Below are positions 33,276 to 39,587 of a DNA stretch of 64,000 nt, piece after piece. Under the pieces are notes generated by a model. The model was not told where the DNA came from and did no database searches. It was given only the letters and a program-made list of their open reading frames with translations. The stretch is from Ignavibacteria bacterium (GTDB taxonomy: Bacteria; Bacteroidota; Ignavibacteria; Kapaibacteriales; UBA4661). A program made the position numbers and the translations under genes. The stretch covers positions 124,001 to 188,000 of the forward strand of contig JACVZY010000093.1 in assembly GCA_014654705.1 (NCBI GenBank). The letters run 5' to 3'. Numbering within the stretch: the stretch's first letter is position 1; each line of letters begins with the position of its first letter.

Positions 33276-34787
33276 TTAAAATGGCGCATCATCATTCATC
33301 AGTTTCGCTGCATTAAAGTCGGATATACTGGTGTTATAGTCCGGCGGAGCATCGTGTCCGAATGCGAGATTCTCAAAGCGCGTGTACTCCTTCACATATG
33401 CGAGGCGCACCGAACCCACGGGACCATTCCGTTGCTTGCCGATAATGAGTTCTGCTGCGCCTTCGGTCGGAGCACCATCTTCTTCAAAAGTCGCAATGCC
33501 GTAGTATTCGGGGCGATGGACAAACATCACCACGTCCGCATCCTGCTCCAGCGAACCTGATTCGCGCAAGTCCGAAAGCATCGGGCGCTTATCGCTACGC
33601 CCTTCCAGCCCACGATTAAGCTGTGCCAACGCAACCACAGGAATATTCAACTCCTTCGCAATCTGCTTCAATGAGCGCGAAATGATAGAAATTTCCCGCT
33701 CGCGGCTGTCGCCCTTGTTCAGCGCGGCGTGCATGAGCTGAAGGTAGTCTATCATCACCAGCCCGATATTTTGTTCGGTCTTCAGGCGGCGGCACTTTGC
33801 ACGAAGTTCCATTACCGAAAGCGCAGGGCTATCATCAATGAAAATAGGGGCTTTTGCCAAACGCCCCATCTGGGTAGCGAGGCGGGGCAGGTCGTCGGGC
33901 TTAATGTTGCCTGTGAGGAGTTTATGGGTGCTCACACGTGCTTCCGCACTCAGAAGGCGCATGGTGAGTTGCTCTTTTGCCATCTCGATTGAGAAAAACG
34001 CAACCGGTACATTGCTTTCCATTGCGACGTTGCGGGCTATTGATAACGCCACTGCGGTTTTTCCCATAGACGGTCTCGCCGCAATGATGATAAAATCGGA
34101 CTTGCGGAAGCCGCCCAGCATATCGTCTAACTTTGTATAACCGGTATTGACGCTGCTATCATTTTTCTCACCGTTGACCATACCCGCAATCGTTGCAAAG
34201 GTATCTTTAGCCAGCTTGTTCATGCCGATATAGCTTTTGCTTAGGCGTTTTTCGGCAATGCGAAAAATCTCGCTTTCGGCTTTGTCAATCTCTTCCAAAG
34301 CGTCCGTGGCGGGGTCGTAAGCACGGGCAAGCACTTCCGATGCCGCACCGATGAGCTGGCGCTTGAGTGCGTGCTCCTGAACAATACGAATGTAATTGTC
34401 CACATTAGCTGCAGTCGGCGTTCCGGCATTGATTTGGATAAGAGTGTACGTCCCGCCAATCGCCTCCAGCATACTCCGTCGGCGCAATTCCTCGCCCAAT
34501 GATACAAGGTCTATCGTAACATTACGCTCCGACATCGAAAGCATGACCTCAAAAATCTTACGGTTTGCTTCTTTGTAAAAAGACTCCGCTTCCAAGACTT
34601 CCGTTGCTTTGGAGAGCGCATTGCGGTCGAGCATAATAGCGCCCAGCACGGCTGCTTCGGCATCAGCAGAGTGAGGCGGTACTTTGTCGCCGATAGCCGC
34701 GAGTTGGAGAACATTGCTATTGGAACGCGAACGGTTATCCGTCAGTTTCGAGACAATGATTTCTCCATCACGGCGTGTTTCTTCCAT
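33276..34787 (-). CDS. dnaB: Replicative DNA helicase
   Basis: DnaB unwinds DNA ahead of the replication fork as a hexamer. The N-terminal domain starts PPHSADAEAAVLGAIMLDRN; the RecA-like C-terminal domain has Walker A ARPSMGKT (residues 237-244 from this start), Walker B LVMIDYLQLMHA and ALAQLNRGLEGRSDKRPMLS with the arginine finger region. Length about 503 is normal. The ORF is open to a GTG at 34799 but the ATG at 34787 is the better start. No intein is present. The 3' gene S41 follows closely. Upstream lies a 400-bp intergenic region with candidate DnaA-box repeats. Confidence 0.95.
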   Translation of the reverse strand: MEETRRDGEIIVSKLTDNRSRSNSNVLQLAAIGDKVPPHSADAEAAVLGAIMLDRNALSKATEVLEAESFYKEANRKIFEVMLSMSERNVTIDLVSLGEELRRRSMLEAIGGTYTLIQINAGTPTAANVDNYIRIVQEHALKRQLIGAASEVLARAYDPATDALEEIDKAESEIFRIAEKRLSKSYIGMNKLAKDTFATIAGMVNGEKNDSSVNTGYTKLDDMLGGFRKSDFIIIAARPSMGKTAVALSIARNVAMESNVPVAFFSIEMAKEQLTMRLLSAEARVSTHKLLTGNIKPDDLPRLATQMGRLAKAPIFIDDSPALSVMELRAKCRRLKTEQNIGLVMIDYLQLMHAALNKGDSREREISIISRSLKQIAKELNIPVVALAQLNRGLEGRSDKRPMLSDLRESGSLEQDADVVMFVHRPEYYGIATFEEDGAPTEGAAELIIGKQRNGPVGSVRLAYVKEYTRFENLAFGHDAPPDYNTSISDFNAAKLMNDDAPF

Positions 34788-34968
34788 GAAATTTGCCACG
34801 ATGATAAGCAGTTAATAGTGATGAGCAAGCCAGTTCTCTAGGGTTTCTGTAATCCGATGCAGCAAGAATCACGCCAGAGAGCCGACGTGTATGCACAGCG
34901 AGGTTGTGCAATTTCAGAATGTACAGATTACAATATGCCGAAAAAATTCCTATCACGGGTGATGTACG

Positions 34969-34988
34969 GTGTAAATTTCTTTACACCG
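34969..34988. promoter_or_regulatory. 20-bp perfect inverted repeat, possible operator
   Basis: GGTGTAAA, 4 bases, TTTACACC: two exact 8-base arms. The short spacer and the position between divergent genes suggest a dimeric regulator binding site rather than a terminator. No regulator can be named. Confidence 0.4.
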
Positions 34989-35013
34989 ACTTCTAACATT
35001 CCCTCTACAAAAA

Positions 35014-35097
35014 TGTGGAAAATCTGTGGGAAATCCGCCACTTTTCCACAGAACTTTCCACATCAATCTTGTTTTCTGAGTACTGTTTTGTGGAAAA
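35014..35097. repeat. Cluster of five TTTTCCACA-like sites, possible DnaA boxes
   Basis: Sites: TGTGGAAAA (35014-35022), TGTGGGAAA (35025-35033), TTTTCCACA (35042-35050), CTTTCCACA (35054-35062), TGTGGAAAA (35089-35097). These differ by one or two bases from the DnaA box TTATCCACA and lie in both orientations within 84 bp, beside dnaB. Confidence 0.45.
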
Positions 35098-35141
35098 GAC
35101 CACCATTATACTACTTATACTGCATTTTTCCCTGAAAAGTC

Positions 35142-35158
35142 GTAAGTTTACAACTTAC
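35142..35158. repeat. 17-bp inverted repeat
   Basis: GTAAGTT, three bases, AACTTAC, 47 bases before the prfA start. Could be an operator or part of the AT-rich region; no T-tract follows. Confidence 0.3.
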
Positions 35159-35204
35159 TATAACAACGCTATTTTCTCATCCAACCGACGAAACCGCCCA
35201 TACG

Positions 35205-36284
35205 ATGGAAGAAAAACTTGTAGCAATTATTGCCCGTTTTGGTGAAATCACAAACCAGCTCGCTGCACCCGATATTCTCAACGACTACAAGCGCTTTAGC
35301 GAACTTTCCCGCGAGCACAAGCGCCTCGAAAGTATCGTCAAAGTAGCCGAGGAGTATCTCACGGTGAGCAAAAACTTACGCGAAAACAAAGAAATCCTTT
35401 CCACACCCGGTATGGATGCTGAGCTAAAGGAACTTGCTGCCTCAGAACTGGACGACCTTACCCAAACCAAGGAGCAGATGGAAGCCGACTTGCAAGTGCT
35501 TCTTCTCCCGCGCGACCCCAATGATGACAAAAACTGCATCGTCGAAATCCGTGCCGGTACGGGCGGCGATGAAGCAGGTATTTTTGCCGGGGACCTTTTC
35601 CGAATGTACCAACGCTTTGCCGACAAAAAAGGTTGGCAAACGGAGGTTATTGACTTTAATGAAAGTGAGCGCGGGGGGTACAAAGAAATTGTTTTTTCTT
35701 TAGCCGGTGAAGAAGCATTTGGTATGATGAAGTACGAAAGTGGCGTTCATCGTGTGCAGCGCGTCCCGGAGACCGAGGCAAGTGGTCGTATTCACACATC
35801 TGCCGCGACGGTTGCTATTTTGCCGGAAGTGGATGATGTTGAAGTTCACATCAACGAAAATGACCTGCGCATTGATATTTTTCGTTCCGGTGGCAAAGGC
35901 GGGCAGAACGTGAACAAGGTGGAAACAGCAGTCCGCATGGTGCATCTGCCGACGGGTATCGTGGTGCAGTGCCAAGAAGAGCGCTCGCAGCTCAAGAATC
36001 GCCAAAAAGCAATGAAAGTCTTACGGGCAAGGCTCTACGAATTTGAACTGGAAAAGCAGCAATCGGAACTGTCTTCCTCGCGCAAAGATATGGTCAAAAG
36101 CGGCGACCGCTCCGACAAAATCCGCACCTATAACTACCCGCAAAATCGTCTAACAGACCACCGTTTGGAAGGTGATGCAAAGAATTATGCCTTGCAAGAA
36201 GTGGTTAATGGCGAGATAGAGCCTGTTATACGACAGTTGCAAATTGCAGAACGGGCAGAACTTCTGAAGGCAGGGGCAATATAA
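35205..36284 (+). CDS. prfA: Peptide chain release factor 1
   Basis: RF1 reads UAA and UAG stop codons and triggers peptide release. The codon-reading tripeptide is P-E-T (residues 188-190, in HRVQRVPETEASGRIHTS), which is the PxT form that marks RF1, not the SPF of RF2. The catalytic GGQ is at 232-234 (GGKGGQNVNK). Domain 1 helices fill the first 100 residues, and the C-terminus TYNYPQNRLTDHRLEGDA is canonical. Length 359 is normal. The glutamine-methylating prmC gene is not adjacent. Confidence 0.95.
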   Translation: MEEKLVAIIARFGEITNQLAAPDILNDYKRFSELSREHKRLESIVKVAEEYLTVSKNLRENKEILSTPGMDAELKELAASELDDLTQTKEQMEADLQVLLLPRDPNDDKNCIVEIRAGTGGDEAGIFAGDLFRMYQRFADKKGWQTEVIDFNESERGGYKEIVFSLAGEEAFGMMKYESGVHRVQRVPETEASGRIHTSAATVAILPEVDDVEVHINENDLRIDIFRSGGKGGQNVNKVETAVRMVHLPTGIVVQCQEERSQLKNRQKAMKVLRARLYEFELEKQQSELSSSRKDMVKSGDRSDKIRTYNYPQNRLTDHRLEGDAKNYALQEVVNGEIEPVIRQLQIAERAELLKAGAI

Positions 36285-36362: not shown

Positions 36363-39300
36363 ATGAAAAATCGCCCCATATTTTATTTCTTCCACCTTCG
36401 CTGCTATTTGCAGCTTCTCTTCTGCTTCGGTCTATACCTCAGCAATGGCGCAGTTGGAATCGTGTATGCCCAAAACTTCAATTTTGAGCGCATCTCCGTA
36501 GAGCAGGGGCTGTCAAGTGCAAACGTCAATTATATTTTTCAAGACCACAAAAAAATTCTCTGGTTCGCCACGGAAGATGGTTTGAATCGTTACGACGGCA
36601 TGACCTTTACGGCATTCCGGCAGACTCTTCCCGATTCCTTGGGCGTGGGAGCGCAAAGTGTTACATCACTTTACGAGGATTCGCGCGGTTACTTGTGGTT
36701 GACAACAGGAAATCACCGCACAATATCACGCTTTTCCAGCCAAACAACTAAATTTGACGCGTTTCTTTTTCCACCTAATACCGAAACGACAGCTCAGACG
36801 ATTACGGAAAAGCGGGACGGCTCAATACTTGTCGGTACAAAAAATGGCTTGTTTGCGCTATCACCTTTGGGTTCTTCTCTGCTCAAGCCCGTTTCATCTG
36901 TGCCCTCATCGTTGGATATATGCGGTATTGCCCGTGAAGGTGCAGGCTTCTGGCTGATTTGTACTAATGGCTTATACTTTTATGACGAGACAAAATCTTC
37001 CACAACCAAGATAGAATGTGGCATTCAGGGTACTATCACTCATTGCACCGTGCAGTCCAACAGCGCGGTCCATAGTGCGGCGCGTCCCGTCGCGCTATGG
37101 CTCGGAACAAGCAATAACGGACTATTTGTGCTCACGCTCGCCACGCGTCGCGCACAGCACATTACCAATGGACTACCAAGCAAACAAGTGCATACCGTCT
37201 GCACACTTTCTTCGGGGGCGGTATGGGTTGGGACGGATAACGGCATAGCAATTCTCCGCACTGCGCCCGAAGAATCGGCTTCATGGCGAGTAGTGCAGAC
37301 GCTCAAGCACGACCTTCGCAATCTTCAAACACTCTCCGGCAATCGTATTCAGCATATTCAAGAAGATGCTTCCGGCGTACTATGGGTCGGAACAGCATTT
37401 TATGGGGTCAGCAAGTATTCTGCGTACAAGCAAAAATTTGTGCATTATGCTGTCAATTTGCTCAAAGAAAATCTCAGCCTAAATAGCGGTTACGTCCGTG
37501 ATATTGCGGAAGATGGCGAGAGCCTTTGGCTCGCAACGCAAACAGGCGGCATAAACCGACTGAACCGCAGGACAGGTGCGTGGACATACTTTCGGAAGGA
37601 TAACATTGGAACCGATACCGCATGGGCGCTGCGCTTTGACCGCAAAAAACAGCTTTGGGCAGGAACAGTAGGCAACGGTCTTTGGACATGGAACGCTTCC
37701 GCGCAAGCATTTACACGCTTTGCAAAGATTCCACCCGCAGCATCCATTCAACTTCTCTATGAAGACCGAGCAGGCACACTTTTCGCAACAGGCGAGGGAA
37801 TGCCGCTCTATTGCATTTCGCCCGACCGCAGAACTGTTGACGCTTTTCCTATCAACCTTGCCAATAGCCCACAGGGTTCGGGCAAACGAGTTCTCTCCGT
37901 GCTGGAGACCGCACAAGGACAGCTTTTGCTCGGAACGCCGTCGGGGTTAGCCGATTTCGACCGAAAACAAGGAACAATGCGCCGTTTGCTTTCTGCCTAC
38001 GGAATTCGCGCACTGTATCAAGATTCCGGTGGTGATTTGTGGCTGGGTACGCGCGGACACGGGCTCCTGCAGTACCGCATGAAAACAGGTTTGCTCACAA
38101 GTATAGATACAGCGCTCATCACCAACATTACCGAGCGAGAGGGTCTGCCGAGCAATTTGGTAAGCGCGATTATGGAAGATGACCGCAAGCATCTCTGGGT
38201 GAGCACTAAGCAAGGGCTGGCGGAAATTGATATTGAAACGCGCAAGGTTGTCCGTACATTTGGCGTTGATGATGGCTTACAGGGACGCGAGTTTCATCAT
38301 GGTTCGGTGTTCAAAAATCCTCAGGGTGAAATATTTTTTGGCGGTACCAATGGTTTCAATAGCTTTTTTCCCGGTTCTATTCGTGTGAACACCTTTCTGC
38401 CACCGATAGAAATTACTTCAGTCAAAAAATTCGGGCGCGAAGAGATGCTCGGCGACTCCGCTGTGGCTGCAGAACGTACCATTACCCTCCGCTACGACGA
38501 AAGCACGGTGTCATTTTCCTTTGTAGCGCTAGACTACAACACCCCGGAAGCAAACGTGTACGCATACAGGCTGGACGGCTTGGACAAAGGATGGGTACAA
38601 GCCGGAACACGCCGCGAAGCCACGTACACCAGTCTTGATGCGGGCGATTACACATTTCACGTCCGCGCCGCCAATAACGACGGCACGTGGAACGAAGCCG
38701 GAGTATCGTTTCGTGTGATTGTTACGCCCCCAATTTGGCGCACGTGGTGGTTTATAGGGCTATCGGTGGGAAGCGCCATTTGCATCGGTTTTGTGACGTA
38801 CCGTGCGCGGATTCGTGCTATTGAGGCACGAAACGCGTGGCTGGAAAAGCAAGTGGAAGACCGCACGGCGGAAATCAAGGAGAAAAACAATAAATTACAG
38901 CAATCACTCGATGAAATCAATATCCTTAGTTCCGTATTGGAGGGAGAGCGCAACAAATCCGAAGATTTGCTGCTAAACATCCTACCGCCCTCCATCGCAG
39001 AGCGCTTAAAATGGGGTGAAACGACGATTGTGGATACCTTTGAAAGCGCAACGGTTCTCTTTACCGACATGGTAGGCTTTACCAAAATCGCATCGCGTGT
39101 ATCGGCAGAAGAATTGATTGTGATGCTGAATCGAATGTTTTCGGAATTTGACAAGCTTGCCGAAAAGCACGGTGTTGAGAAAATCAAAACCATCGGCGAC
39201 GCATATATGGCGGTAGCGGGTGTTCCTATTCAGAGCGAATATCACGCCGAAGCTGTTGCAGACATGGCGCTTGATATTATGCTTGCCATACAAGACCTTG

Positions 39301-39587
39301 CCGAAAAAGAGAACCTACCCATCAGCATTCGGGCAGGCATTCACACCGGCTACCTGACGGCAGGCGTTATCGGCGAAAAGAAATTTGCTTACGACCTCTG
39401 GGGCGACACCGTGAACACCGCAAGTCGCATGGAATCAAGCGGGGAACCGGGTCGAGTGCAATGCTCCGAAGCCACGTACAACGCACTCAAAGACCTTTTT
39501 GACTTTGAGGAGCGCGGCACAATTGAGGTGAAGGGCAAAGGCGCTATGAAGACATATTTTGTGCTGGGAAGGAAGAATATATCTTGA
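36363..39587 (+). CDS. Membrane adenylyl cyclase with periplasmic Reg_prop propeller
   Basis: A 1074-residue protein. Signal peptide to about residue 37 (GIVYAQN), then about 14 short propeller repeats such as ILWFATEDGLNRYDG and VWVGTDNGIAIL, the two-component regulator propeller family, to about 690. A Y_Y_Y domain follows (ANVYAYRLDGLDKGWVQAGT), one membrane helix (about 795-815), a coiled coil and a class III cyclase domain (about 895-1065). Metal ligands D902 and D946, transition-state residues N1018 and R1022 are all present. K942 and D1011 are the adenine-specifying pair, so the product should be cAMP. It couples an outside signal directly to a second messenger. No cAMP-receptor gene is in the window. 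A 9-bp stem (39584-39613) overlaps its stop codon but lacks a T-tract. Confidence 0.85.
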   Translation: MKNRPIFYFFHLRCYLQLLFCFGLYLSNGAVGIVYAQNFNFERISVEQGLSSANVNYIFQDHKKILWFATEDGLNRYDGMTFTAFRQTLPDSLGVGAQSVTSLYEDSRGYLWLTTGNHRTISRFSSQTTKFDAFLFPPNTETTAQTITEKRDGSILVGTKNGLFALSPLGSSLLKPVSSVPSSLDICGIAREGAGFWLICTNGLYFYDETKSSTTKIECGIQGTITHCTVQSNSAVHSAARPVALWLGTSNNGLFVLTLATRRAQHITNGLPSKQVHTVCTLSSGAVWVGTDNGIAILRTAPEESASWRVVQTLKHDLRNLQTLSGNRIQHIQEDASGVLWVGTAFYGVSKYSAYKQKFVHYAVNLLKENLSLNSGYVRDIAEDGESLWLATQTGGINRLNRRTGAWTYFRKDNIGTDTAWALRFDRKKQLWAGTVGNGLWTWNASAQAFTRFAKIPPAASIQLLYEDRAGTLFATGEGMPLYCISPDRRTVDAFPINLANSPQGSGKRVLSVLETAQGQLLLGTPSGLADFDRKQGTMRRLLSAYGIRALYQDSGGDLWLGTRGHGLLQYRMKTGLLTSIDTALITNITEREGLPSNLVSAIMEDDRKHLWVSTKQGLAEIDIETRKVVRTFGVDDGLQGREFHHGSVFKNPQGEIFFGGTNGFNSFFPGSIRVNTFLPPIEITSVKKFGREEMLGDSAVAAERTITLRYDESTVSFSFVALDYNTPEANVYAYRLDGLDKGWVQAGTRREATYTSLDAGDYTFHVRAANNDGTWNEAGVSFRVIVTPPIWRTWWFIGLSVGSAICIGFVTYRARIRAIEARNAWLEKQVEDRTAEIKEKNNKLQQSLDEINILSSVLEGERNKSEDLLLNILPPSIAERLKWGETTIVDTFESATVLFTDMVGFTKIASRVSAEELIVMLNRMFSEFDKLAEKHGVEKIKTIGDAYMAVAGVPIQSEYHAEAVADMALDIMLAIQDLAEKENLPISIRAGIHTGYLTAGVIGEKKFAYDLWGDTVNTASRMESSGEPGRVQCSEATYNALKDLFDFEERGTIEVKGKGAMKTYFVLGRKNIS

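Follow-up and report, generated by a model that had tools for sequence, protein, structure and literature searches.

Background

Binding of DnaA upstream of dnaB is a known kind of arrangement and has been reported in Mycobacterium tuberculosis, where the cited part of the report also has the authors noting accord with Caulobacter crescentus (PMC7738170). DnaA autoregulatory sites were described upstream of dnaA (PMC8203912), and in Borrelia burgdorferi DnaA was described to control dnaX-ebfC (PMC9879097). The nonamer TTTTCCACA was presented as the species-specific DnaA box of cyanobacteria, located at oriC near dnaN (PMC4674748); these statements, too, follow the parts of the reports that are cited here. 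A literature search on DnaA in the Kapabacteria found no DnaA work.

In this study, a cluster of DnaA-box-like nonamers located next to dnaB in an Ignavibacteria genome was analysed computationally. The window, i.e. the whole stretch of DNA that was analysed (64,000 nucleotides), belongs to contig C93 in a draft genome of 5.72 Mb (G000). The genomes compared were the eight genomes of the genus (G000 to G007, including G000 itself), two further genomes of the same family (G008 and G009, the latter from another genus), and four genomes from outside the family (G010, G011, G012 and G018), of which G012, from another family of the same order, is closed in a single contig.

Box cluster between dnaB and prfA

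Five TTTTCCACA-like nonamers, three exact and two with one mismatch, were found on both strands within 84 bp (35014-35097) of the intergenic region between dnaB and prfA (Table 1), as the preliminary description had claimed, and the two inverted repeats that it listed were also present. The divergent genes on both sides were confirmed, each scoring above its NCBIfam cut-off, and so was the absence of dnaA from the window: the gene is not on contig C93, and its sole match in the genome lies on contig C20. The AT-rich tract that had been described beside the boxes was borne out only in part, since some AT excess exists at the site but is modest, peaking at 70% per 50 bp versus 52% in the window; the value for a second box cluster, on contig C12, is 72%. 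Among the 80 dnaB loci listed, the best named match of this dnaB was in a Candidatus Kapaibacterium genome (55% identity), which suggests a position of G000 within or close to the Kapabacteria. Downstream of prfA lies a gene for a large protein with propeller repeats and a guanylate/adenylate cyclase domain, and an open frame upstream of dnaA resembles a related cyclase, as judged by eye.

The cluster far exceeds chance. In 300 sequences of 64 kb each, simulated with a first-order Markov model, the maximum was three boxes per 84 bp, with four or more found in none (0/300). When permuted nonamers were counted on the real 196-kb contig, five per cluster were reached in 0 of 400 cases and four in 2 of 400, and one of these two permuted nonamers was an overlapping version of the box motif. 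The exact motif TTWTCCACA occurs 196 times in the 5.72-Mb draft genome.

Table 1. Coordinates of genes, box-like nonamers and other elements (positions in the window unless a contig or locus is given)
Feature	Position	Strand	Remarks
dnaB, replicative DNA helicase; probable target of the control	33276-34799	-	TIGR00665, 539.5 bits (cut-off 385)
Conserved element TTTTTTCGGCATATTGT	34930-34946	-	in G000, G001, G002, G003, G004, G007
Inverted repeat CGGTGTAAA / TTTACACCG	34967-34975/34980-34988		9-bp arms; conserved half GTGTAAA only
Conserved operator core (putative), dnaB sense	35010-35050	-	spans three of the five boxes
DnaA-box-like nonamer TTTTCCACA	35014-35022	-	exact
DnaA-box-like nonamer TTTCCCACA	35025-35033	-	1 mismatch; aligned stretch conserved in relatives
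DnaA-box-like nonamer TTTTCCACA	35042-35050	+	exact
DnaA-box-like nonamer CTTTCCACA	35054-35062	+	1 mismatch
DnaA-box-like nonamer TTTTCCACA	35089-35097	-	exact; not conserved in G001
Inverted repeat GTAAGTT/AACTTAC	35142-35158		arms of 7 bp, by direct reading
prfA, peptide chain release factor 1, divergent neighbour	35205-36284	+	TIGR00019, 504.8 bits (above cut-off)
Large protein downstream of prfA	36363-39587		propeller repeats, Y_Y_Y domain, guanylate/adenylate cyclase domain
Box cluster, origin candidate	G000:C12:88895-89400 (L114:1482-1914)		12 boxes, 5 exact; beside M20 peptidase gene
Exact boxes within dnaX coding sequence	G000:C12:25997-26047 (L176:5997-6047)		in fast-changing linker
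Relatives' dnaX loci with internal boxes	L211, L212, L213, L215, L218, L219		
Tandem pair on C18	G000:C18 (L115:1501-1521)		no replication gene recognised nearby
Tandem pair on C4	G000:C4 (L113:1501-1533)		no replication gene recognised nearby
Densest sampled box cluster of G012	G012:C1 near 126284 (L231:16284)		

Association of the boxes with dnaB in related genomes

Boxes were counted over the 320 bp preceding each gene, and up to one mismatch was allowed. Upstream of dnaB, five boxes were present in G000, G001 and G004, four in G002 and G006, three in G007 and six in G005 and G009, so that the sites are conserved in relatives, with at least three boxes in seven of the eight genus genomes as well as in G009. 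The exception is G003, which has no box in these 320 bp; the only matches there, two with one mismatch each, lie at a distance of about 1 kb. Among the remaining genomes, one exact box was found in G008, whose dnaB was matched in two pieces, and one in G018, and no box cluster was found in G010, G011 and G012.

The open frame upstream of dnaB varies among the genus genomes. Five boxes each were counted upstream of prfA in G000 and G001, the two genomes in which this gene faces dnaB. Under the same settings (320 bp, at most one mismatch) the other six genus genomes had none, and on the basis of these six prfA was rejected as the controlled gene.

In an alignment of G000, G001, G002, G004 and G007, the 40 columns with the highest conservation in the dnaB upstream region, 30 of them invariant in the five genomes, coincided with the putative operator core at about 35010-35050. 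This count covers the five genomes only, since an alignment of all eight genus genomes showed G003 to have no boxes and G005 and G006 to have them in a different arrangement; the latter two also have no exact head-to-head pair.

A second conserved element lies between the boxes and dnaB, can also be read as TTTTTTCNGCATATTGY, and is kept in G003 despite the absence of boxes there. Its distance from the box pair, in the direction of dnaB, is 78-79 nt in four genomes but 56 nt in G004, and it is possibly the core promoter of dnaB. As a general promoter motif, this element, scanned as TTTTTTCNGCATATTGC, was rejected, its matches with at most one mismatch being confined to dnaB in the four contigs scanned. 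A scan for sigma-70 promoters gave one weak match towards prfA, which is uninformative, as shuffled sequences gave a mean of 1.1.

Paired boxes upstream of dnaB and dnaA

All eight genus genomes were searched for the exact head-to-head pair TGTGGAAAA-N0-30-TTTTCCACA, which was found at seven places in five of them. Every one of the seven was upstream of dnaB (five places) or of dnaA (two places, in two genomes), and the backwards control pattern was found at no place in the same eight genomes. The head-to-tail pair occurs at five places in G000, namely at dnaA, at dnaB, in the C12 cluster, on C4 and on C18. It is possible that the C4 and C18 pairs are further DnaA targets.

At least three boxes were present upstream of dnaA in all seven genus genomes examined for this (all but G007), and in G000 the same nonamer is clustered, in tandem and inverted order, both upstream of dnaA and at C12. 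The DnaA protein of G000 is complete, with its ATPase, N-terminal and helix-turn-helix (HTH) domains all above the Pfam cut-offs, and its DNA-binding domain contains the stretch FGGRDHTTVIH in common with the solved DnaA structure 8btg.

Predicted control of dnaB by DnaA

With a probability of roughly 0.8, as judged from sequence comparison, the box cluster serves as an operator through which DnaA controls dnaB. DnaA is taken as the binder because the nonamer recurs unchanged at dnaA as well as in the origin candidate and because the DNA-binding domain of DnaA is intact. Several DnaA molecules would occupy the head-to-head and tandem TTTTCCACA boxes in a cooperative manner, the bound DnaA would set the rate of dnaB transcription, and the supply of helicase would thereby track the level or the nucleotide state of DnaA. 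The same box type upstream of dnaA would serve autoregulation in parallel with the control of dnaB. We infer that DnaA binding alters dnaB transcription; as to the sign of the regulation, the position of the core, 56-79 nt upstream of the candidate promoter (the sole further conserved element), slightly favours an activating or modulating action from there.

A DnaA-regulated promoter was the reading towards which the preliminary description had leaned, and it is well supported by the comparison, as the boxes go with dnaB rather than with prfA in the genus genomes, this nonamer also clusters upstream of dnaA, and exact head-to-head pairs were found only at dnaB and dnaA. Points against it are the lack of boxes in G003, the altered arrangement in G005 and G006, the weak or absent signal in the genomes from outside the family and in G008, and the two head-to-tail pairs of G000 (C4 and C18) near which no replication gene was recognised.

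Alternative explanations for the cluster

The preliminary description had also raised the possibility of a chromosomal replication origin (oriC), at which DnaA would open the DNA. The five boxes on both strands, the inverted repeats and some AT-richness are in keeping with an origin, and in relatives the origin candidate lies on contigs that also carry genes of replication or translation, dnaX and prfA for example (G004:C15 and G007:C99). For the dnaB site, however, this explanation is highly improbable. The G-C skew analysis that had been named as a check gave no minimum at C93:159 kb, the cumulative value declining through the site (skew of -0.023 over the 35 kb to its left and -0.007 over the 37 kb to its right), a result that covers this contig only and concerns a weak skew. 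A denser cluster lies next to an M20 peptidase gene in an intergenic region at the end of contig C12; of its 12 boxes, five of which are exact, two read TTATCCACA. The cluster is conserved, a like one adjoining this gene in G001, G002, G003, G004 and G007, so that six of the eight genus genomes have it when G000 is included; a search at the M20 gene gave none in G005, G006, G010 and G012. The contig minimum of cumulative G-C falls at this cluster in C12 and in G004:C15, and on G007:C99 the cluster coincides with no more than a local dip, the contig minimum being at 9.5 kb. The C12 cluster is likely the origin, as the best candidate seen in the genome, but is not proven, because the skew is weak in the genus and the minimum of G007:C99 lies elsewhere. 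In the closed genome G012, for which 40 pieces were sampled, the skew has its minimum at about 120 kb and its maximum at about 1330 kb; the densest sampled box cluster, at 126 kb near an mnmG/gidA-like gene (named by eye), is located at the minimum, whereas dnaB, at 1388 kb, is close to the maximum. An easy mistake is corrected in this way, namely that of taking a box cluster that adjoins a replication gene for the origin, the better candidate being on another contig.

Deletion of datA, DARS or DnaA-box clusters that control DnaA is known to shift the timing of initiation, and datA and DARS carry sites for partner proteins. The dnaB site could likewise act mainly by titrating or inactivating DnaA, in the manner of the Bacillus subtilis box clusters or of datA, with the adjacency of dnaB being of minor importance. 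Five clustered boxes do resemble DnaA-box clusters outside origins, and loss of all six such clusters in B. subtilis led to early initiation, according to the cited part of that report (PMC5295017). Nevertheless, titration as the main function appears improbable, given that the cluster keeps with dnaB while its other neighbour varies and that the exact head-to-head pair is restricted to dnaB and dnaA; titration of DnaA and control of dnaB are in any case mutually compatible. Highly improbable, too, is a role of the inverted nonamers as binding sites for another regulator or as a hairpin in an RNA leader, with the likeness to DnaA boxes arising by convergence. The nonamers do make inverted repeats of 9-14 nt, so that recognition by a palindrome-binding dimer, or folding into a hairpin, can be imagined, but a hairpin offers no explanation for the clustering of the same nonamer, in tandem and inverted order, in the origin candidate as well as upstream of dnaA. 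An RNA element at the dnaB site was rejected after an Rfam search gave no match at E values up to 1.

Boxes within dnaX

Exact boxes were also found inside the coding sequence of dnaX. Three were present in each of G000, G001, G002, G003 and G004 and two in each of G007 and G009, and none in the dnaX genes of G005, G006 and G008. Shuffling of synonymous codons reached the observed count in 0-2 of 1000 trials in the five genomes with three boxes, and in 26 of 1000 and 45 of 1000 trials for G007 and G009, respectively. The boxes within dnaX remain a lead, because part of the excess could stem from short tandem duplications in the linker. They are possibly internal DnaA sites, and, if so, they would represent a new place for DnaA control. 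Other bacteria make two forms of DnaX, near the corresponding region of dnaX.

A dedicated DnaA circuit over the replication machinery of this Kapabacteria genus, using one box type, with autoregulation at dnaA, the head-to-head array at dnaB and the boxes inside the dnaX linker, can be put forward only tentatively, and we judge it somewhat less probable than its opposite.

Comparison with known systems

If dnaB is controlled by DnaA as proposed, conservation would reveal a DnaA-coupled supply of helicase in a group on which no DnaA work was found, and an operator defined to about 40 bp, with a head-to-head nonamer pair common to dnaB and dnaA, would be available for testing DnaA as a transcription factor. 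As in M. tuberculosis, DnaA sites, here candidate sites, are located upstream of the helicase gene in addition to those at oriC and dnaA. Unlike in the cited part of the M. tuberculosis report (PMC7738170), the sites described here come from sequence conservation alone, belong to another phylum, include a conserved head-to-head pair and have the box TTTTCCACA. The autoregulatory sites described for dnaA (PMC8203912, as far as cited) are matched here by boxes of this type upstream of dnaA, which form exact head-to-head pairs in two of the genomes; the difference is that the present finding concerns dnaB.

The cyanobacterial box, as given in the cited part of its report (PMC4674748), is identical to the nonamer found here, which in this other phylum is located at dnaB, at dnaA and at a separate origin candidate. 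DnaA-box clusters away from the origin are a feature common with B. subtilis, where the cited part of the work (PMC5295017) concerns initiation, and here such a cluster is tied to dnaB. Finally, the predicted action of DnaA on replication genes including dnaX resembles that in Borrelia, in which the site, according to the cited part of the report (PMC9879097), is located in the 5' UTR, whereas the candidate sites described here are within the coding sequence.
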